DNA of 64,000 bases from assembly GCF_002222655.1 (NCBI RefSeq), contig NZ_CP022423.1:1426001-1490000 (forward strand), read 5' to 3'. Shown piece after piece: positions 49,802-60,682 of the stretch; the stretch's first letter is position 1, and the number at the start of each line of letters is the position of its first letter. This stretch comes from Vitreoscilla filiformis (lineage in GTDB: Bacteria > Pseudomonadota > Gammaproteobacteria > Burkholderiales > Burkholderiaceae_C). Both the position numbers and the translations under genes were made by a program. The notes below the pieces were generated by a model. That model was not told where the DNA came from. It worked only from the letters and a program-made list of their open reading frames with translations, and did no database searches.

Positions 49802-50632
49802 ATGTTGTCCAAGCTGTTGTTACGCCGTCCGTCCGTGCTACCGGGTTTCGACCTGGCGCTGGGCCTGGCGGTGTTCTATTTGTGCCTGATTGTGCTCATC
49901 CCACTGTCGGCGGTGTTCCTCAAAACCTTCACGTTGAGTTGGGACGGTTTCGTCGAAGCGGCGTTCTCGCCGCGTGTGCTGGCCAGTTATCGGCTGACCT
50001 TCGGTGCCTCGTTGGCCGCCGCCCTGCTGAACGGCGTGTGCGGCCTGCTGGTGGCCTGGGTGCTGGTGCGCTACACCTTCCCGTTCAAGCGCATCATCGA
50101 TGCGCTGGTCGATCTGCCCTTTGCCTTGCCAACGGCGGTGGCCGGCATCGCCCTGACGGCGCTTTACGCCCCGAATGGCTGGATCGGTGCTTGGCTGCCC
50201 TTCAAGGTGGCGTTCACCCCGCTGGGCGTGTTTGTAGCGCTGACCTTCATTGGCTTGCCATTCGTGGTGCGGACGGTGCAGCCGATCTTGGAAGACTTGC
50301 AGCATGAGTTGGAAGAGGCCGCCGCCACGTTGGGCGCTTCGCGTTGGCAGACCTTCCGTTTCGTCATCCTGCCGACGCTGATGCCGGCCTTGCTCACCGG
50401 TTTTGCGCTGGCCTTTGCGCGGGCGCTGGGGGAATACGGCTCGGTGATTTTCATCGCCGGCAACATGCCGATGGTCAGTGAAATCACGCCGCTGCTCATC
50501 ATCACCAAGCTGGAGCAGTACGACTATGCCGGCGCCACCGCCATCGCTGTGGTGATGCTGCTGATTGCCTTCACTTTGCTTCTTGCCATCAACCTGCTGC
50601 AAGCCTGGGCGCGTCGGCGCCAAGGTCGCTGA
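49802..50632 (+). CDS. cysT: Sulfate/thiosulfate ABC transporter permease CysT
   Basis: 276 residues with six predicted membrane helices. The EAA loop is EEAAATLGASRWQTFRFVILPTL, and GFALAFARALGEYGSVIFIAGN is typical of sulfate permeases. It forms the channel with CysW. No clear ribosome-binding site is visible, and the sbp gene that commonly stands just upstream is absent; a binding protein lies at 61.8 kb instead. Confidence 0.93.
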   Translation: MLSKLLLRRPSVLPGFDLALGLAVFYLCLIVLIPLSAVFLKTFTLSWDGFVEAAFSPRVLASYRLTFGASLAAALLNGVCGLLVAWVLVRYTFPFKRIIDALVDLPFALPTAVAGIALTALYAPNGWIGAWLPFKVAFTPLGVFVALTFIGLPFVVRTVQPILEDLQHELEEAAATLGASRWQTFRFVILPTLMPALLTGFALAFARALGEYGSVIFIAGNMPMVSEITPLLIITKLEQYDYAGATAIAVVMLLIAFTLLLAINLLQAWARRRQGR

Positions 50633-50638
50633 TACACC

Positions 50639-51505
50639 ATGACCGTGACCGCTGTTGTTGTTTCCGAACCGGCCCGCTCGGCCCTGGCCGCCACGCACGA
50701 ACCGGCCTGGGTGCGGCGCTCGCTCATCGCGGGGGCGCTGCTGTTTTTGGCGCTGTTTTTGTTCACGCCTTTGGTGGCGGTGTTCGTCGAAGCCTTGCGC
50801 AAAGGCTGGGCGACCTACCTCGCCGCGCTGGTCGATGAAGATGCACTTTCCGCCATCCGCCTGACCTTGCTGGCCACTGCGATTGCCGTGCCGTTGAACT
50901 TGGTGTTCGGCGTCAGCGCCGCCTGGGCGATTGCCAAGTTCGACTTTCGGGGCAAAAACCTGCTGCTCACGCTGATCGACTTGCCGTTCTCGGTCAGCCC
51001 GGTGATTGCGGGCTTGATTTACATGCTGGTGTTCGGCCTGCAAGGTTGGTTCGGCGAGTGGCTGCGCGACCACGATTTGAAGATCGTGTTTGCCGTGCCG
51101 GGCATCGTGCTGGCGACGGTGTTCGTGACCTTCCCGTTTGTGGCGCGGGAGCTGATTCCGCTCATGCAAGCCCAAGGCCAAGAGCAAGAAGAAGCCGCCC
51201 GCGTGCTGGGCGCCAGCGGCTGGCAAATTTTCTGGCGCGTCACGCTGCCGAACGTGAAGTGGGCGCTGTTGTACGGCGTGATCCTGTGCAACGCCCGGGC
51301 GATGGGGGAGTTTGGTGCGGTGTCTGTGGTGTCTGGCCACATCCGGGGGCAGACGAACACGCTGCCGCTGCACATCGAGATTCTTTACAACGAGTACCAA
51401 TTCGCGGCGGCGTTCGCGGTGGCCTCGCTGCTGGCCGGGCTGGCGCTGGTGACGCTGGGGCTGAAGTACGTGGTGGAGCAGCGCATGAAAAAGGAACTGA
51501 CATGA
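50639..51505 (+). CDS. cysW: Sulfate/thiosulfate ABC transporter permease CysW
   Basis: 288 residues, six membrane helices. [23 protein letters not shown] is the EAA motif that docks on CysA, and [20 protein letters not shown] is characteristic of CysW. It pairs with CysT. Six bp after cysT; its stop overlaps the cysA start. Confidence 0.93.
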
Positions 51506-52539
51506 GCATCGAAGTCCGCAACCTGGTCAAGCACTTTGGCCGCTTGGCGGTGTGCAACCACTTGAACCTCACCATTCCGTCGGGTGAATTGGTGGCGCTG
51601 TTGGGGCCGTCGGGCTCAGGCAAAACCACGCTGCTGCGCATGATCGCCGGCTTGGAGCAGCCCGACAGCGGCCACGTGCTGTTCCACGGCGAAGACGCCA
51701 CGCACACGACGGTGCGTGAGCGCAACGTCGGGTTTGTGTTCCAGCACTACGCGCTGTTCGGCCACATGACGATTTTTGAGAACGTCGCCTTCGGTCTGCG
51801 GGTGCGTCCGCGTGAGACGCGCCCGAGCGAGGCGCAGATTCGCGCCAAAGTCACCGAGCTGCTCAAGCTGGTGCAGTTGGATTGGATTGCGGAGCGTTAC
51901 CCGCACCAACTCTCCGGCGGACAGCGTCAGCGCGTGGCGCTTGCCCGGGCGTTGGCGGTGGAACCCAAGGTGCTGCTGCTGGATGAGCCCTTCGGTGCGC
52001 TGGACGCCAAAGTGCGCAAAGAGCTGCGCCGCTGGCTGCGGCGCTTGCACGATGAAATGCACGTCACCAGCGTGTTCGTCACCCACGACCAAGAGGAGGC
52101 GATGGAAGTGGCGGATCGCATCGTGGTGATGAACGAAGGCAAGATCGAACAAGAAGGCGCCCCGGACGAGGTGTACGACCATCCGGCCTCGCCCTTCGTT
52201 CTCAAGTTTTTGGGCGATGTGAACCTGTTCCACGGACGGGTGGAGCACGTTCCCGGCGGTGCGCTGGCGGCGCCGGACGAGGAGGTCAGTTATGTGCGCC
52301 CGCACGAGCTGGACATCGTGGCCCAAGCCAGCGCCGACACCTGGACGGTGACGCTGGCCCAAACGCTCACCGTGGGCCCGAACACGCGGCTGGAGTTCCG
52401 GCGCGAGGATGGCAGTTACGTGGACGTCGAACTGCCCCGCGAACAGTGGTTGGATGTGCGCGAACGCCTGCACTTGGCGCCGGGGCGGGAGGCGCATTTG
52501 CGGCCGCGTCGGGTGACGCGGTTTGCGGCGGTGGTTTAA
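51502..52539 (+). CDS. cysA: Sulfate/thiosulfate import ATPase CysA
   Basis: 345 residues. Walker [10 protein letters not shown] (35-43), Q-loop in [12 protein letters not shown], signature [15 protein letters not shown], Walker [12 protein letters not shown], switch His THDQEEAM. C-terminal TOBE-like domain about 240-345. Provides energy for sulfate uptake. Confidence 0.95.
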
Positions 52540-52557
52540 CGCCGACACAACCTGTGG

Positions 52558-52594
52558 TGCCAAAGCCGCCGTGCGAAGCGTGGCAGCTTTGGCA
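52558..52594. repeat. Inverted repeat between cysA and the Mrr gene
   Basis: TGCCAAAGC (52558-52566) and GCTTTGGCA (52586-52594) are exact complements with a 19-bp partly self-complementary loop. No T-run. Located at the junction of cysTWA and the candidate defence cassette. Confidence 0.4.
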
Positions 52595-52614
52595 GCGTCG
52601 GGGTGATGGCCCTG

Positions 52615-53538
52615 TTAGACGCTGTCCTCGTCAAAATAGTCACTGTCTATTTTAGGGATTTTGACTGTTTTTGATGAAATGCCGATTTCATAATCAATCA
52701 TCAATTCAACCAGTTTCGAGCCGTCAACCAGCACGATTTTTTCAACTGATTTTGCGAACTCAATCGCCTGTGTCGTGTAATTGGATGTGGTGATGAAAAC
52801 ACCTTTATTGGCTCGTTGCCCGGCCAGCGCACCGTAGAAGGCTTGAACCTCAGGGCGACCCACTGAATTTTGCCATCTCTTGGCTTGAATATATACTTTC
52901 TCAAGCCCTAATTTATCAAGGGATATGATTCCATCAATCCCGCCGTCGCCTGATCCGCCGACTCGCTGGAGATCTGTGCGGTTGGTTCCGTACCCCATTT
53001 TGTGGAGCAGGTCAAGAACAATGGCTTCAAAAAATGTCGGGCTGACTCTTGATACGGTTTCGAGTAACTCGAGTGCAACTGTATTTCGTATTTCTAGCAG
53101 GGCGTGGTCTAACCGATCCTCAGGTGTTTGCGTTGATTTTTTTTCAACGGACTGAGCAGTGGTAGGAATTTCTGTGGCGTCAGGAATTATTCTTAATCTA
53201 ACGTCGGTGAATTCGGTTGCTAATTTCACTATCTCTGCGTCAGTGAGTTTTTTGGGGTGTTTTTTGATAAAATCCAACCCGTTGCTTGTTATTTTCCAGA
53301 AGCCGCGTCGTGGGCTGTCAGATAGGCCCGCTCTTTTCAGACGATCATGGGCCCAGCCCGCTCGATTTTTATAAATAGCCTGGTTGCCGCTTGCTAAAAG
53401 TTGCTGCTTTTCCGCTTCTGTGATGCCAAGAGATTCGGCAGCAGCTTCGTGTGCATATTTGGCCATGATTCCATCTGGTTGGGTTGCCAAATAGCGGAGT
53501 ATGGGCTCAATGAACTTATCATACGTTGGAATAGGCAT
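52615..53538 (-). CDS. mrr: Mrr-type restriction endonuclease
   Basis: 307 residues. N-terminal Mrr_N winged helix (about 1-95: YDKFIEPILRYLATQPDG, GWAHDRLKRAGL) and C-terminal Mrr_cat PD-(D/E)xK domain: GGSGDGGIDGII with Asp 202, then YIQAKRW with Gln 218 and Lys 220, the Q-x-K variant. Mrr enzymes cut modified foreign DNA, so host defence is likely. It is clearly AT-richer than its surroundings, suggesting transfer. 29 bp after the AlbA_2 gene, and last of a three-gene cassette. Confidence 0.9.
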   Translation of the reverse strand: MPIPTYDKFIEPILRYLATQPDGIMAKYAHEAAAESLGITEAEKQQLLASGNQAIYKNRAGWAHDRLKRAGLSDSPRRGFWKITSNGLDFIKKHPKKLTDAEIVKLATEFTDVRLRIIPDATEIPTTAQSVEKKSTQTPEDRLDHALLEIRNTVALELLETVSRVSPTFFEAIVLDLLHKMGYGTNRTDLQRVGGSGDGGIDGIISLDKLGLEKVYIQAKRWQNSVGRPEVQAFYGALAGQRANKGVFITTSNYTTQAIEFAKSVEKIVLVDGSKLVELMIDYEIGISSKTVKIPKIDSDYFDEDSV

Positions 53539-53567
53539 ATTTTTCTGATTGTTGAATGGTATAAAGT

Positions 53568-54758
53568 CTAACGGCTGGGCGTGCGAGAGTCCGATTCAGC
53601 ATTCTGGGCCGAAGGGCGGGCGACGGTGGCTTTGAACAGGTTCCCACTGCGGTCGTCCGTCAGTTCAATGTGCGGCCAAGCGCGCAGCGCACGCAGCACC
53701 CCACTTCCCAACCCACGATAAGGCAACAGCTTGGCAGCAAACGAAGCCAAGATGGGGTTGCGCATGTTGGAGTTGCCTGCCTTGATGTTCTCGATGGTCA
53801 AGTGGTTGGGCAGGTGGCCGGGGCTGATGATTTCCACACGGTCGGCAAATACCAGTACCCGCACCGGGGCACTGATGAAGTAGTCGCGGTGGATGAGGGC
53901 ATTGACCACCAGCTCTTCCCAAACGATGCGAGCAATTTCCGGTTGCCCCTGGGAGTTGAAGCCCTGATCGCTTTGCTGCGCCCGGGTGTTGGCGATGATG
54001 AAACCCAGTGTCTGCTGGCACACGTCGGCCAATTTGCCAGTGATGTCACGGCTGTCGATGTAGCGCTCGTCTTCGATTTGGGTGCCCACAAAAGCAACCG
54101 CCTTGACGATGAAAGCCGGCAACGCGTATTGCGGTGCCTTGGCAAACAGCAAACTGCCCGCCACATTGAGCCGCCCCTGGTTCATCAGGTTCATGTTGGT
54201 GAGCAACTGCGGCAGCGGCTGGTGATGCTGGGCAAGCGATTCGCCGAATTGCTGGGTGAAGAAGGCTTCGAAATAAGCCATGTCTACATCGCCCGCACCC
54301 AATCCAGCCACGGGCGTTTCATCCGTGTGAACCAAACCGGCCTGCTGGAACAAGCGTTGTAATTCTTCGCGTGAAGTGGCCCGGCGTTTGTCGGAGCCAC
54401 TCTTGACCCAAATGGTGCCGTTTTTATCCATGTAGGGTTTACTGAAACCCTCTGGGAGGGTAATCACCATCACCATGCCGTTGGGGTGCGGCACATTGTC
54501 GGTCAGGGGATTCACGGCTGGCCGCACGTTTTGGGAGGCGCTGTTGGAGACGAGTTGGTTCAAGCGGTCAACGTCCGCGCCCGACAAGCCCCGCACTGTG
54601 CCATCGTTGTGTACTCCGACAAAAATTCTCCCGCCAGCGGTATTGCTGAACGCCACGATTTCAGCGGCCAAAGCATCCGCGTTGGTGAAGTTTTCCTTGA
54701 ATTGCTGGTGGCTGTCCTCACCCCGGCTGAGCAGGTCAATCAGCTCTGTGGTTTCCAT
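53568..54758 (-). CDS. AlbA_2/Schlafen-like ATP-binding protein
   Basis: 396 residues. N-terminal AlbA_2 (Schlafen-type) domain: SRGEDSHQQFKENF, EIVAFSNTAGGRIFVGVHNDGT. C-terminal half matches the RecG-C/HATPase_c_4-like part: VVNALIHRDYFISAPVRVLV, ISPGHLPNHLTIENIK, GLGSGVLRAL. Such proteins occur in DNA or RNA related defence and regulation. Start ATG 54758 (GAGG upstream) overlaps the preceding gene by 19 bp, so it is translationally coupled to the PHP-SMC gene. Confidence 0.87.
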   Translation of the reverse strand: METTELIDLLSRGEDSHQQFKENFTNADALAAEIVAFSNTAGGRIFVGVHNDGTVRGLSGADVDRLNQLVSNSASQNVRPAVNPLTDNVPHPNGMVMVITLPEGFSKPYMDKNGTIWVKSGSDKRRATSREELQRLFQQAGLVHTDETPVAGLGAGDVDMAYFEAFFTQQFGESLAQHHQPLPQLLTNMNLMNQGRLNVAGSLLFAKAPQYALPAFIVKAVAFVGTQIEDERYIDSRDITGKLADVCQQTLGFIIANTRAQQSDQGFNSQGQPEIARIVWEELVVNALIHRDYFISAPVRVLVFADRVEIISPGHLPNHLTIENIKAGNSNMRNPILASFAAKLLPYRGLGSGVLRALRAWPHIELTDDRSGNLFKATVARPSAQNAESDSRTPSR

Positions 54759-57361
54759 AGGTTGTAAACCTCTTTGCGACGGTTAAAGGCTTCCCGGCCA
54801 CCCTCCATGATGCTGATGATGGCGTGTTGGATCGGGCGGGCGTCAATGCTGCCACTTTGCACCGTCACCTGTTCGTCTTGATATTGGCAAGCATGCACCT
54901 GTTCTGCATCACCCAGCACCGGGAAATTGGCGTTGTGGGTGGCAAAGATGAATTGAACGTGAGGTTTCATCTGGCGCAGCAGTTGGATCACATCGTCATA
55001 AATGGTTTGATTGTCCAGATCGTCTTCGGGCTGGTCGATGATGATCACGTCATTTTGCCGTTGGCTGAGCACATAAAGCAACAGCGCCGAAGCCCGCTGC
55101 CCCAGCGAGTGGTGTTTCAATTCTTTGCCGCGATAACGAATCACAAAACGGTTGGGCACCTGCCAAGTGACGAGTTCAGCCAAGTTTTGCATCAAGGTTT
55201 TCTCGAAGCTTTCTGGGCTGCTTCCGGCTTTGACCTTGCCTTCCATCCAGCCGCGCAGCAACCCGCCGAAATCGCTGTAGCCATCCAGCGCAGCGCGTTG
55301 TGTTGCCGCATGAATGCCGCTGCCCTTAAAAAGCTGCTGCATGAAGCTGAAAGCCGCTTCTCGGTCACCCTTGAATTCTGCTTCGATTGTTAAAGCCGTG
55401 CGGCCAGCGTTCACACGATCCAATTCCATTTGAATGGTATTGAACTCGCATAACCAAAGGTCGTTGAGTTTGTTGATTTCGGTCAACAGCGCGTCGCGGA
55501 TGTGGGTCTGCTGGGATTCCTGTTTGGCCAACGCCTCCAGCATTTGCTCTGCTCTGGTTTTGCGCTGTTGCTGGGCCAGGAAATCATCCGGTTGGATGGC
55601 GGCCACACCGGTTTGTTTGAGTTCCTGCGCCAGTTGACGTTCAACCTGCGCAAACTCCTCCTGAAGACTTCTGCGGGTCCCTTCAAATTTACCCTGTTGG
55701 GTGGTGAGATGATCTGTGATTGTGCATGCTGCTTGTTCGATCTGCTTGAGCTGATCGACTTGGGCAATGAGTTTAGAGAACTCAGCGCAGTAGGCCGCAA
55801 AGAAATCAGGATTTTGCTTGGATACGTAGCTGGTGGCGTTGCGCAACTCATCTTCGTGTTCGGCGATCAATGATCCCAGCGCACGGGTGAAGTTTTCTGA
55901 CCGATCCGTCATGCGGGCCAGTGCGGCAGCGTCTTGTTGGAAACCGAGACGCTTTTGGAGCTTGTCAGCGATACCATGTTCCGCGAATTTATTCAGCCGG
56001 AAGTTGGCATCGTGGAGTTGGGTTTCGAAATCGCGCTTTTGTTCGGCGGTGTGGCTGAGTTTGAGCCAGCGTTGAACGGCATCGCTGACACGCTGGCGCT
56101 GGGCTTCGATGTCATCTCGCAGCACGCGAAGTTTTTCACCGACCAGTTTTTCAACCAAATCAGTTTCAAAACCTTCGCCAGTGCTGGACAGGTCTTTTTG
56201 ACCAAAGTAAATCGGGTGGCGCAGCACGGTTTCCCGGATTGAAACGCCAGGTTGCAACTTGCCACCCAGGTAAACGTTGGGAGCTTCCCGGAAAATACGG
56301 GAGATGGTGAACATTTGGCCGTAAATATCGCAGGCCGTCAGCGTCACCTTGCCGCCGCTGCCGAGGGTGTGGCGGATCAGCTCGTCTTTGTATTTCGTGT
56401 CCTGAGATTTTTCGCCTCGTGGAATATCCAGGGCGTAGCGAATGGCTTCTAAAATGGCAGATTTTCCACTGCCGCGAATACCAATCAGCGCGTTCAGTTC
56501 TGGGGAAAAATCCAACGTCTGGCCGTCAAAAATACCACCGTCGAAGTGGATGCTGCGCAGGTGCGATGCCTGGTGTTTGGGTGGTTCCGTGGCAACCCGC
56601 GCAGCGGGATCACTCAAAGCAAACTTCACCGCCTCAAAAGACAGTTCCCCCAGCTTGAGATAGCAAGCTGTTCCTCTCCCGATTTCCTCGATGCGTTTGG
56701 GGTCGCTGCCTTCGAGTTCGGCGGGGTAACAGTCTGGCATCCATGATTTGACCTTGGCGCGGCTGATGGCACCTTTGCCACCTTCATCACGGGTTCGGAC
56801 TTTCTGGAACCCCAGCGTTCGGCGTCTAAAAAACTCGTTTTTCCCCAGTTCGCTCAGGCGCCCTCCCTCTAACTCGTTCCACAAGCCAGACCGCGCTTCA
56901 ACGTGTGCGAACACGAGAAAAAAGTCCCGGTGATAACCTTCCAGTTTCTTGATGGTTTCCAGCAAGGACAACGAGGATCGGCCATTCTCTTGCTCGTACT
57001 CGGCAGGTGCTTTGCCTTCAAAGGCACTGCTCAAAAAAGGGCCGATGTAGTTGTGCTCGTCAATCCATGCGTCTGAGAACACCACCAGCGTGTGAATCCC
57101 GTTGGCACCATCGTTGACCGACAACTCGACGCCCGGCAGCAGCTCAATCCCTTTTTTTTGGGCTGTTTTGCGCAGTGCCTTGAATTCATTCACGTCAAAT
57201 TTATTGTGATTGGTGATGACACCCAGGCGAATCCCCGCCTTCTCCAACGCTTCCACATAAGCACTGTTGTAAAAGCTGTCATCGCCCGTGAACTTGAACT
57301 CACGATCTGCTCGGGTGTGCAGATGGAAATCTGCACGCACCCACTGTGCGCCTTGCGTCAA
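54740..57361 (-). CDS. PHP-domain SMC-like ATPase (TrlF-type)
   Basis: 873 residues. N-terminal PHP phosphoesterase-like domain with metal-ligand candidates His 13/His 15 (DFHLH), His 52 (TNHN), Glu 79 (GVELS), His 90 and His 153. Then an SMC/Rad50-type ATPase: Walker A GIRGSGKS (294-301), a coiled coil of about 250-300 residues, Walker B IIIDQPEDDLDN (about 773) and HNANFP after it. The gene starts with TTG 57361, supported by a perfect GGAGGT 5 bases before it. Probably a nuclease-ATPase; defence role inferred from its operon partners. It lies 16 bp after dbpA. Confidence 0.9.
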   Translation of the reverse strand: MTQGAQWVRADFHLHTRADREFKFTGDDSFYNSAYVEALEKAGIRLGVITNHNKFDVNEFKALRKTAQKKGIELLPGVELSVNDGANGIHTLVVFSDAWIDEHNYIGPFLSSAFEGKAPAEYEQENGRSSLSLLETIKKLEGYHRDFFLVFAHVEARSGLWNELEGGRLSELGKNEFFRRRTLGFQKVRTRDEGGKGAISRAKVKSWMPDCYPAELEGSDPKRIEEIGRGTACYLKLGELSFEAVKFALSDPAARVATEPPKHQASHLRSIHFDGGIFDGQTLDFSPELNALIGIRGSGKSAILEAIRYALDIPRGEKSQDTKYKDELIRHTLGSGGKVTLTACDIYGQMFTISRIFREAPNVYLGGKLQPGVSIRETVLRHPIYFGQKDLSSTGEGFETDLVEKLVGEKLRVLRDDIEAQRQRVSDAVQRWLKLSHTAEQKRDFETQLHDANFRLNKFAEHGIADKLQKRLGFQQDAAALARMTDRSENFTRALGSLIAEHEDELRNATSYVSKQNPDFFAAYCAEFSKLIAQVDQLKQIEQAACTITDHLTTQQGKFEGTRRSLQEEFAQVERQLAQELKQTGVAAIQPDDFLAQQQRKTRAEQMLEALAKQESQQTHIRDALLTEINKLNDLWLCEFNTIQMELDRVNAGRTALTIEAEFKGDREAAFSFMQQLFKGSGIHAATQRAALDGYSDFGGLLRGWMEGKVKAGSSPESFEKTLMQNLAELVTWQVPNRFVIRYRGKELKHHSLGQRASALLLYVLSQRQNDVIIIDQPEDDLDNQTIYDDVIQLLRQMKPHVQFIFATHNANFPVLGDAEQVHACQYQDEQVTVQSGSIDARPIQHAIISIMEGGREAFNRRKEVYNLWKPQS

Positions 57362-57377
57362 GAGAACCTCCGTCGAT

Positions 57378-58790
57378 TTAAAGCCGCCGCACCTTCACAC
57401 TCTTGCCCTTCACGCGCCCACCTTGCAGGCCGCGCAGCGCGGCGTCGGCCACCTCGCGGGTGACGGCCACATAAGTGGAAAAGTCGTTCACGCTGATTTT
57501 GCCGATGTCGCTGCCGGCAAACCCCAGGTCTTTGGTGAGCGCGCCCAGCACGTCGCCGGGGCGGATTTTTTCCTTGCGCCCGCCCAAAATTTGCAGCGTC
57601 ACCATCGGCGGGTGCAGCGGCTCGGCGCTGGTGGCTGTCAAGCTCGCCAGCGGCGCCCATTCAAACGCACTGCCGCGCACCAGCTCCAAGCGGCCCACGC
57701 GCCCCATCTCGTCCAAACTCGCCAGGCTGAAAGCCCAGCCGCTTTCCCCCGCCCGTCCGGTGCGCCCCACGCGGTGGGTGTGAACCTCCACATCCGGCGT
57801 GATGTCCACGTTGATGACGGCTTCCAGTTGCGCGATGTCCAGCCCACGCGCCGCCACGTCGGTGGCCACCAGCACGCTGCAACTGCGGTTGGCAAAACGC
57901 ACCAGCACTTGGTCGCGCTCGCGCTGATCCAGATCGCCGTGCAATTCCAGCGCTTCGATGCCCTGGGCGTGCAGCACGTCCACCAAGTCGCGGCACTGCT
58001 GCTTGGTGTTGCAAAACGCCAGCGTGCTCACCGGGCGGTAGTGGTTCAGCAGTTGGCCCACGGCGTGCAGGCGCTGCTCCTCCGTGACTTCAAAAAAGAG
58101 CTGGCGAATCTGCTGCGGTGCGTGTGCCTCGGCCAGCTTCACGGTTTGCGGTGAGCGCATGAAACGCCCGGCCAGCTTGCCCACGCCCTCGGGGTAGGTG
58201 GCGGAAAACAGCAGCGTTTGGCGCTGCGTCGGGCAGTGTTTCAGCACTTGGTTGATGTCTTCGGCGAAGCCCATGTCGAGCATGCGGTCGGCTTCGTCCA
58301 GCACCAGGGTGTTGAGGGCGCTTAAGTCGAGGGTTTCGCGCCCCAGGTGATCGAGGATGCGCCCCGGCGTGCCCACCACGATGTGCGCACCATGCGCCAG
58401 GCTGGTCATCTGCGGGCGCATCGTGGCGCCGCCGCACAGCGTCAGGATTTTGATGTTGTCCTCGGCGCGGGCCAGGCGGCGGATTTCTTGTGTCACCTGC
58501 TCGGCCAGCTCACGGGTCGGGCACAGCACCAAGGCTTGCACCGCAAAACGCCGGGGGTTGAGGTTGAGCAGCAGCGGCAGCGCAAAAGCGGCGGTTTTGC
58601 CGCTGCCCGTTTTGGCTTGGGCGATCAAATCTTGCCCAGCCAGGCTCAAGGGCAGGCTGGCGGCCTGGATCGGCGTCATGCGCTCGTAGCCCAGGCGTTG
58701 CAGGTTGTCCAGCATCGCCGGCGGCAGGGGCAGGCGGCGGAAATCGTCTGCGCTGGGCGCAGTGGAGGAGGGGAGCGTCGTGTCGGTCAT
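57378..58790 (-). CDS. dbpA: ATP-dependent RNA helicase DbpA
   Basis: 470 residues. DEAD-box motifs AQAKTGSGKTAAF, PTRELAEQV, VLDEADRML, LLFSATYP, HRVGRTGRAGE. The C-terminal domain (KIRPGDVLGALTKDLGFAGSDIGKI) is the DbpA-specific binder of 23S rRNA helix 92; it acts in 50S assembly. Start ATG 58790. Its stop is 16 bp before the PHP-SMC gene on the same strand, so readthrough into the cassette is possible. Confidence 0.95.
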   Translation of the reverse strand: MTDTTLPSSTAPSADDFRRLPLPPAMLDNLQRLGYERMTPIQAASLPLSLAGQDLIAQAKTGSGKTAAFALPLLLNLNPRRFAVQALVLCPTRELAEQVTQEIRRLARAEDNIKILTLCGGATMRPQMTSLAHGAHIVVGTPGRILDHLGRETLDLSALNTLVLDEADRMLDMGFAEDINQVLKHCPTQRQTLLFSATYPEGVGKLAGRFMRSPQTVKLAEAHAPQQIRQLFFEVTEEQRLHAVGQLLNHYRPVSTLAFCNTKQQCRDLVDVLHAQGIEALELHGDLDQRERDQVLVRFANRSCSVLVATDVAARGLDIAQLEAVINVDITPDVEVHTHRVGRTGRAGESGWAFSLASLDEMGRVGRLELVRGSAFEWAPLASLTATSAEPLHPPMVTLQILGGRKEKIRPGDVLGALTKDLGFAGSDIGKISVNDFSTYVAVTREVADAALRGLQGGRVKGKSVKVRRL

Positions 58791-58822
58791 GCCGGATTGT
58801 CGGTGCCTGACCGACTCCCGGC

Positions 58823-59425
58823 TCAACCCGCCAGCGTCCAGCGCCCTTCGGCGACGAGTTCGCTCAAGGGTTTGCGCTGGTTGGGGGTTTCGCGGGCTTG
58901 CAGCGCATCGGGCAAGCGGGCCTTGTCCCCTTGGCGTCCGATGGCGACCACGGCATGCGCGGCCACATCGTCAGGCACTCCCAAACGGGCTTGCAGCGCG
59001 GCAGCGTCAAACCCGCCCATGGCGTGCGTGATCCAGCCTTGGTGATGCGCTTCCAAAGCCAAGCTCATCCACGCGGCGCCTGCGTCGAACGCATGCCACG
59101 GGGCGGGGACGGCGGCATCCTGGCCCGGCGGCGTGGTGGTGCGGGTGGACAGCACCGCGACCAAGGCCGAAGCGTGCTGCGCCCACCCTTGGTTGAACGG
59201 CACCAGCGTGGCCAACAGCGCATCGAACGCCGGGGTGCCGGCCAGGCCGTAGACGAAACGCCAAGGCTGGCTGTTCGACGCGGACGGCGCCCAGCGTGCC
59301 GCCTCAAAACAGGCCATCAAGGTGTCCAGCGGCATCGGTTCACCCGTGAAAGCGCGGGGCGACCAGCGCTCGGTGAATTGCGGGGCGATGGGCAGGGTGG
59401 GGGTGCGGGCGTCGCTCATGGTCAT
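58823..59425 (-). CDS. Nitroreductase-family protein
   Basis: 200 residues. FMN-binding nitroreductase pattern: PQFTERWSPRAFTGEP (R-S-x-R-x-F), CFEAARWAPSASNSQPWRF, and the C-terminal VAIGRQGDKARLPDALQARE. It reduces nitro or quinone compounds with NAD(P)H. Start is ATG 59425 or 59419. Follows cysB on the same strand. Confidence 0.88.
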   Translation of the reverse strand: MTMSDARTPTLPIAPQFTERWSPRAFTGEPMPLDTLMACFEAARWAPSASNSQPWRFVYGLAGTPAFDALLATLVPFNQGWAQHASALVAVLSTRTTTPPGQDAAVPAPWHAFDAGAAWMSLALEAHHQGWITHAMGGFDAAALQARLGVPDDVAAHAVVAIGRQGDKARLPDALQARETPNQRKPLSELVAEGRWTLAG

Positions 59426-59537
59426 CCGTGGCAAAACAAACGATGACCGCAGTGTGCAAGGCTTTGCCGCTCGTAGCGTTGCGGCGTTTTGTGGGCCTGC
59501 GTGCAACGGGGTTGAACGTTGGCCCAGCGGCGCGGCG

Positions 59538-60482
59538 TCAGAGCGGCGCTTGCGTCACGTCTGCGGGTGCAGCTTGGGCGGCGCTGACCACATCCCGCGT
59601 CAGGTGCGAGGCGAAGGTCTGGATGAAATCGTAGGCGTAGCGGCGCAGCAAGCCGCCCCGGCGCACCGCCACGCTGGTGGTGTTGATGGGGAACAACTGG
59701 CGGGCGTCCAGTGCCACCAAGGGCGCGTCGCGCTGCTCATCGAATGCAATGGCGGCGATCACCCCCACCCCAACGCCCAAGCCCACATAGGTTTTGATCA
59801 CATCCGCGTCCATGGCGGTGAGTGCCACTTGCGGGCTCAGGCCAGCGCGGGCGAACGCAGTGTCGATGCTGCTGCGGCCCGTGAAACCGTGCTCGTAGGT
59901 GATGAGTGGATGCTCGGCCAAGCGTTGCAAAGTCAGCGGGCCGTCCAGCAAGGCATGGCCGGGGGGCACGATGATGGAGTGTGTCCAGCGGTAGCACGGC
60001 AAGGCCACCAGATCGGGGTGTTCGGCCAGCTCGTGCGAGGCGATGCCGATGTCGGCTTCACCGCTTTGCAGCATCTGCGCCACTTGGGTCGGTGAACCCT
60101 GGTGCAACTGAAACTGCACCTGCGGGTGGGTGGACAAAAAATCATGCACCGCCGATGGCAAAGCGTAACGCGCTTGCGAGTGCGTGGCAGCGATGCTGAG
60201 GGTGCCACTGTCGCCCTTGAGGAAATCTTCGCTGGCGCGGTGCAGGTTGTCCGCGTCGAGCAACAGCTTTTCCACCCAGGGGACGACGTGTTCACCGGCT
60301 GGCGTCAGGCCGGTGAGACGCTTGCCCACGCGCACAAAAATTTCCAGCCCCAGCTCGTCTTCCAACTCGCGGATTTGGCGACTCACCCCCGGCTGTGAGG
60401 TGTGCAGCACAGTCGCCACGTCGGTCAGGTTGAAACGGCGGCGCACCGCTTCACGCACGGCGCGCAGTTGTTGAAAGTTCAT
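59538..60482 (-). CDS. cysB: CysB-family LysR regulator
   Basis: 314 residues. MNFQQLRAVREAVRRRFNLT and LHTSQPGVSRQIRELEDELG are the CysB-type HTH; the effector domain has the THSQARYALP segment that binds sulfate or O-acetylserine. It activates sulfur assimilation. The divergent operon ends in sbp, and cysTWA lies 7 kb away, both probable targets. No clear Shine-Dalgarno sequence. Confidence 0.93.
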   Translation of the reverse strand: MNFQQLRAVREAVRRRFNLTDVATVLHTSQPGVSRQIRELEDELGLEIFVRVGKRLTGLTPAGEHVVPWVEKLLLDADNLHRASEDFLKGDSGTLSIAATHSQARYALPSAVHDFLSTHPQVQFQLHQGSPTQVAQMLQSGEADIGIASHELAEHPDLVALPCYRWTHSIIVPPGHALLDGPLTLQRLAEHPLITYEHGFTGRSSIDTAFARAGLSPQVALTAMDADVIKTYVGLGVGVGVIAAIAFDEQRDAPLVALDARQLFPINTTSVAVRRGGLLRRYAYDFIQTFASHLTRDVVSAAQAAPADVTQAPL

Positions 60483-60682
60483 GATGTTTTACCGGAAAGA
60501 TGACGATCTATCCGAGCCATTGTCAGCAGCTTGGCCTCTCCCGCCAACGACACAAACCGCAGAACCACAGACGACGTCAGCATAAGCCGCCCAGCAGAGA
60601 TCGATAGACGGTTTTCTTCGTTTTGCATCGCCCGATGGCCTTGCACCATGGCGACATCGTGTGCTGTTGCCGGGAGGTTGCC

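Follow-up and report, generated by a model that had tools for sequence, protein, structure and literature searches.

The question raised by one stretch of the Vitreoscilla filiformis genome is whether three adjoining genes, encoding a PHP-ATPase, an AlbA_2 protein, and an Mrr-type nuclease, make up one defence system. They lie in a row on the minus strand of the window, a 64,000-nucleotide stretch of NZ_CP022423.1 (genome G000; other G numbers denote genomes, and L numbers denote loci or stretches fetched from other genomes), as trlF (54740-57361), trlG (53568-54758), and mrr (52615-53538). Open reading frame (ORF) positions confirm the layout given by a first-pass annotation, with trlF and trlG overlapping by 19 bp (54740-54758) and a 29-bp junction between trlG and mrr (53539-53567). 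The same annotation could name no described system for the set; judged by sequence, the first two genes do have a name, being trlF and trlG of the Photorhabdus Temperature Restricting Locus (TRL), and it is the combination with Mrr that is new. The reading preferred here, with slightly less than even confidence, is that a TRL-type growth-arrest pair, often plugged into restriction-type operons, stands in the window with a separately acquired Mrr partner.

TrlF, translated from a TTG start, joins a PHP domain (residues 1-260) to a coiled-coil-containing ATPase of the ABC/SMC type (about 265-853) and scores 576.1 bits against NF045780, above the curated cut-off of 350 for family membership. The PHP-type residues H13, H15, H52, E79, H90, H153, and D220 are kept in 53 of 53 TrlF rows; in the ATPase part, Walker A, with K300, is present in 52-53 of the 53 rows, and the signature, the Walker B core (D776-N784), and the H-loop core (T808-N810, N812) are present in all of them. 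Structural-model matches include EndoQ, Smc5/6, RecF, and Rad50. The same fusion of a PHP domain to an SMC-type ATPase is found in Ppl, a single-gene anti-phage protein; the available part of a review describes it as a 3'-5' exonuclease whose activity depends on 3' ends and on depletion of nucleotides (PMC12904381). TrlF matches the Ppl profile of PADLOC with an E-value of 7.5e-39 but, unlike Ppl, is paired with TrlG. Of the Menshen proteins, only NsnB gave a weak match to TrlF (7.3e-5, among the best 25 of 63 rows), and no Nsn protein matched TrlG or Mrr. TrlF relatives without the PHP part (model match from about 281-307 to 944) also occur in several genomes, for instance at G105:C1:3431654-3433489.

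TrlG consists of a Schlafen AlbA_2 domain (14-127) and a HATPase_c_4 domain (297-360) by Pfam; those of the TRL protein span 14-128 and 298-365 in the accessible text of the Photorhabdus paper (PMC7554251). At 10 of the 11 Photorhabdus loss-of-function missense sites, the window protein has the wild-type residue with one numbering shift allowed; this two-offset placement was made without aligning the Photorhabdus sequence itself, and the best of 200 shuffled sequences reached 6. A full-length match to structure 3lmm was found. The Schlafen RNase triad is given as E205, E210, and D248 of rat SLFN13 in the part of the source available (PMC5862951). Alignment to SLFN14 shows that E14 is kept in TrlG, while the place of E210 is taken by Gln in all 56 rows (Q19), and a role as an active Schlafen RNase was rejected, on homology, given this Gln19 in place of the catalytic Glu and the incomplete triad. 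TrlG has the domain pair of the Schlafen-type AlbA_2 and histidine-kinase-like proteins but differs from the active Schlafens in this residue and, unlike these proteins, travels with TrlF. A second AlbA_2/HATPase-type protein is encoded in the window genome (G000:C1:2985177-2988259; 660-aa frame, 28% identical to TrlG), with an N6 methylase gene about 1.2 kb away.

Photorhabdus laumondii stops growing at 36 degrees, and the accessible text reports that this arrest is relieved in trlG mutants and when the operon is deleted (PMC7554251). The window resembles TRL in both protein families, gene order, TrlG domain positions, and the loss-of-function residues. It differs in having no small regulator gene directly before trlF (no search with the trlR sequence was made) and in having a DEAD-box gene 16 bp upstream and the Mrr nuclease downstream. 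With the DEAD-box gene standing where trlR would be, the locus is a TRL-type pair and not the whole TRL operon. On plasmid pYR3, trlR and trlF are described with type I methylase fragments between them, and the word "phage" is absent from the text available for the same paper (PMC7554251). Among the matches listed from the open-licence literature, no paper discussing TrlF with restriction operons or phage defence was found, and the place of the pair inside such operons is an addition to the TRL paper.

One genome from each of 84,980 species was scanned with TrlG peptide patterns, which returned 65 loci; 54 of them have trlF and trlG ORFs on one strand, and 11 were dropped (four with no TrlG ORF and seven with no TrlF ORF called). 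The two genes overlap by 19 bp in 38 of the 54 loci, as in the window, by 13 bp in 12, and by 28-31 bp in three; the remaining locus is broken. In 30 of the 54, the gene next to the pair on the same strand, at most 150 bp away, is of a restriction or BREX-like kind (29 from the neighbour count, and L043 by Pfam; L023 and L029 hold a gene fragment only); pair and neighbour overlap by 4 bp in 19 of these. The usual type I order is hsdR-trlF-trlG-hsdS-prrC-hsdM, and L008 has hsdM-rhuM-hsdS-trlF-trlG followed by hsdR. Other partner operons are MmeI-helicase-GIY-YIG-trlF-trlG, those with an Eco57I-type methylase, and those with an N6/N4 methylase and a SNF2 helicase. The BREX-like L043 has an Eco57I-type methylase and a PglZ match of 24.6 bits, just below the cut-off of 25. 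Nucleases near the pair include YhcG in L041 and HNH in L039. A PrrC-like gene is present in eight of the 65 loci (the member in L015, from Azospira, matches PADLOC PrrC at 1.2e-142), and an anticodon nuclease is annotated in LC735983.

The partners were mapped onto a tree built from 50 concatenated TrlF-TrlG rows, 31 of them labelled and the 19 unlabelled ones left out. Eight labels change 10 times, the least possible number being seven. Clear switches are seen at L008/L047 and L006/L028 and, within a type I clade, at L026 and L039; the window forms a separate branch. The tree indicates that the pair has changed partners, and the small excess over the minimum supports switching in particular places, not constant exchange. 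The spread is patchy, at eight of 399 genomes of the order, window genome included; the pair is present in 49 records of the plasmid collection (E up to 1e-60), and 38 of 5426 Escherichia coli genomes match trlG. In L148 (E. coli NZ_CM132268.1), the operon hsdR-trlF-trlG-hsdS-AAA ATPase-hsdM adjoins Tn7-like transposition genes and is probably cargo of a Tn7-like element. Such company, restriction and BREX-like genes together with the Tn7-like genes in E. coli, lends support to the first-pass idea of a defence cassette. In phage records, only distant AlbA_2 relatives were found (25 records, <60% identity), and viral contigs gave 38 TrlG-like loci, of which L173-L175 are 49-55% identical, and three Mrr loci, none with both and none with a TrlF match (window proteins, E up to 1e-8). 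TRL-type TrlG proteins (56-57%) are also present in Sphaerochaeta (L054 6612-7775; L055 7035-8198) with no adjoining TrlF by BLAST, and a different AAA ATPase gene lies directly upstream in L055.

The mrr product matches Mrr_cat (6e-41) and the winged-helix Mrr_N (2.4e-23) in Pfam and PADLOC mREase_IV at 7.8e-119 over residues 1-303, and its motif (D202, Q218xK220) is intact. Domains and motif point to an intact Mrr-type nuclease, for which modification-dependent cleavage is predicted only; the domain calls of the first-pass annotation are supported. With Mrr_N, Mrr_cat, D, and Q-x-K, the protein resembles type IV Mrr enzymes and differs from them in adjoining trlFG. By tblastn (E up to 1e-5), full-length Mrr is found beside the pair in 0 of the 65 TrlG loci. 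In the order, Mrr occurs (E up to 1e-60) in 19 of 399 genomes, of which only the window genome has TrlG within 1.5 kb, and 0 of the 18 other Mrr loci have the pair within this distance.

An initial statement that Mrr is never near the pair elsewhere was dropped, as profiles and Pfam detected divergent Mrr_cat nucleases that had escaped the BLAST query. L233, from the same genus (G001:C1:1090000-1104000), has a type I-like N6 methylase, a 238-aa protein, TrlF', TrlG', and Mrr_cat in a row, with a 38-bp TrlF'/TrlG' overlap and a 14-bp gap between TrlG' and Mrr_cat. Its TrlF' passes the TrlF cut-off (656 bits) and aligns full-length to the Ppl model at 528 bits (cut-off 1000); its TrlG' is only 31% identical to that of the window. 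The 238-aa protein has a weak, sub-threshold HEPN match. Since L233 has the same domain order, the three families are adjacent outside the window genome, contrary to what the first-pass annotation had named as a ground for refutation. Mrr_cat also lies 9 bp past hsdM of a trlFG/prrC operon in L031 and divergently, 290 bp from trlF, in L057; these nucleases, like that of L233, are of another type than the window Mrr (PADLOC PDC-S02 in L031 and L057). Of 100 genomes of the window organism and its relatives, 54 carry Mrr_cat genes, which are therefore common, yet only two of the 36 fetched Mrr_cat loci, the window and one in G001, have a TrlG relative within 1.5 kb, so that such adjacency is no general habit of Mrr genes. 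Mrr-type nucleases, as far as gene neighbourhoods tell, are rare but recurrent partners of the pair; the window was chosen for its trio and is not independent evidence on this point. When 42 loci were read in extended stretches, 22 of which contain an adjacent pair, Mrr_cat came up in L233 only, and none was seen beside the deeper-clade TrlG' in four longer stretches from further family genomes (L280-L283) or in L234. A conserved three-gene system, as the first-pass annotation had proposed, was rejected on these results, on the full-length Mrr counts, and on the differing base composition. No catalogued system with exactly this set was found in PADLOC-DB 2.0 among the matches listed.

The DEAD-box helicase gene (57378-58826, minus strand, 482 aa) lies directly upstream of trlF and ends 16 bp before it (57362-57377), with GGAGG 5 bases ahead of the TTG start. 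Between 52400 and 57700, a sigma-70 scan of the minus strand gave nothing promoter-like. The 16-bp gap is too short for a promoter, which makes read-through from the DEAD-box gene likely; trlF is probably transcribed from that side. The 19-bp overlap suggests translational coupling of trlF and trlG, and no clear Shine-Dalgarno sequence was seen before mrr in the 29-bp junction. GC content is 0.47-0.56 in the island against 0.60-0.68 in the surroundings, the flanks being a convergent cysA (ending at 52539) and the DEAD-box gene, whose GC3 of 0.834 is host-like. Near cysA in ten genus genomes read (L171 and L172 are short), no homologue of the DEAD-box, trl, or mrr genes above 45% identity was found; the cysA-cysB distance is not constant among them, so the insertion site is a variable one. 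No Rfam match was found within 50000-60500, and a PHROGs search gave no decisive match.

In the preferred reading of an arrest pair with an acquired nuclease, Mrr is best taken as the interchangeable DNA-cutting partner. The partner nuclease would first cut foreign or wrongly modified DNA, by analogy with E. coli Mrr, which acts on modified DNA in vivo according to the accessible part of a review (PMC12707154). The SMC-type ATPase of TrlF would then bind the ends, supplied here by Mrr, and the PHP domain would be released onto the DNA, as Ppl suggests. TrlG, a putative nucleic-acid binder of Schlafen fold in which a catalytic Glu has been lost, would act last as switch or effector, its kinase-like ATP domain providing the switch to cell-wide arrest. 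We infer both the defence activity and the link to Mrr, and whether mrr is coupled to trlFG is nearly an even call. A wider form of the idea, which is doubtful, holds that trlF-trlG is a general plug-in turning breaks made by interchangeable enzymes (type I, MmeI-type, Eco57I-type, BREX-like, and Mrr) into DNA degradation and growth arrest; the Photorhabdus temperature restriction would be this module firing without phage, and the window a minimal version, the pair plus one modification-dependent nuclease with no adjacent methylase.

Several results weigh against the preferred reading. TrlF has a Lys at position 222 in 53 of 53 rows, which we take to be the place of the last His in canonical PHP domains, so the PHP activity may differ; this residue also sets TrlF apart from Ppl, for which it scores 162.1 bits in NCBIfam, below the cut-off of 1000. 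No phage test of any TRL pair was found in the literature. In nine of 42 extended stretches (L255-L257 and L268-L273), a distant TrlF family member has no TrlG match in the stretch read. No restriction or BREX-like neighbour is present in 24 of the 54 loci, 13 of which end within 1 kb of the pair, and pairs on Pseudomonas plasmids and, in the accessible text, in Photorhabdus (PMC7554251) are likewise without one, so a restriction partner is not required. Full-length Mrr adjoins the pair in the window genome only. The GC3 of mrr is 0.448, unlike that of trlG and trlF, in line with the first-pass remark on the composition of the last gene; it suggests that mrr arrived on its own, and a separate acquisition is probable.

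A real possibility, somewhat less than an even chance, is that trlF-trlG is a complete two-gene arrest or defence module and mrr an unrelated solo restriction gene in the same cysA-cysB insertion hot spot. The sharp difference in composition, the counts of 0 of 65 and 0 of 18, the pairs lacking a restriction neighbour, and the variable cysA-cysB interval all agree with it. It accounts less well for mrr lying on the same strand as the pair after a gap of only 29 bp, for the return of Mrr_cat beside the pair in L233, L031, and L057, and for the rarity of a TrlG relative near other Mrr_cat loci (two of 36).

The position within operons suits equally well an unlikely alternative modelled on PrrC, whose link to the type I enzyme is established in the parts of the sources available (PMC3874165, PMC12707154): a restriction enzyme would keep TrlFG latent, and its inhibition or degradation by phage would free TrlFG for arrest, each different partner being the guarded enzyme. 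Like PrrC (EcoprrI), the pair appears as an accessory arrest function inside hsd operons, in eight loci together with a PrrC-like gene, but several of these operons then already contain PrrC, and the pairs standing alone fit less well. No modification enzyme is adjacent in the window either, N6_Mtase matches lying at six other places in the genome. TrlF and TrlG also differ from PrrC and RloC in lacking the HEPN nuclease, no HEPN match being found in TrlF, TrlG, or Mrr at E up to 1. It is more improbable still that the pair regulates growth under stress or with temperature, is not a defence module, and is linked to restriction by shared mobility alone: the sole published phenotype found is that Photorhabdus stops growing when shifted to 36 degrees (PMC7554251, accessible text), but the 4-bp overlaps with restriction genes, the plasmid records, Tn7-like neighbours, and patchy distribution, and the kinship of TrlF with Ppl argue otherwise.

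The finding is of value for connecting temperature restriction with restriction systems, not for the trio as a unit: the growth-temperature locus of Photorhabdus is now joined to restriction systems. Should TrlFG prove to be an arrest module tied to restriction, the temperature phenotype would gain a cause that can be tested, and an uncatalogued layer would lie over the restriction enzymes of numerous plasmids and genomes, among them the 49 plasmid records and the 38 E. coli genomes. Partner swapping, moreover, would allow one to ask whether the signal common to these enzymes is DNA ends or the inhibition of the enzymes themselves.

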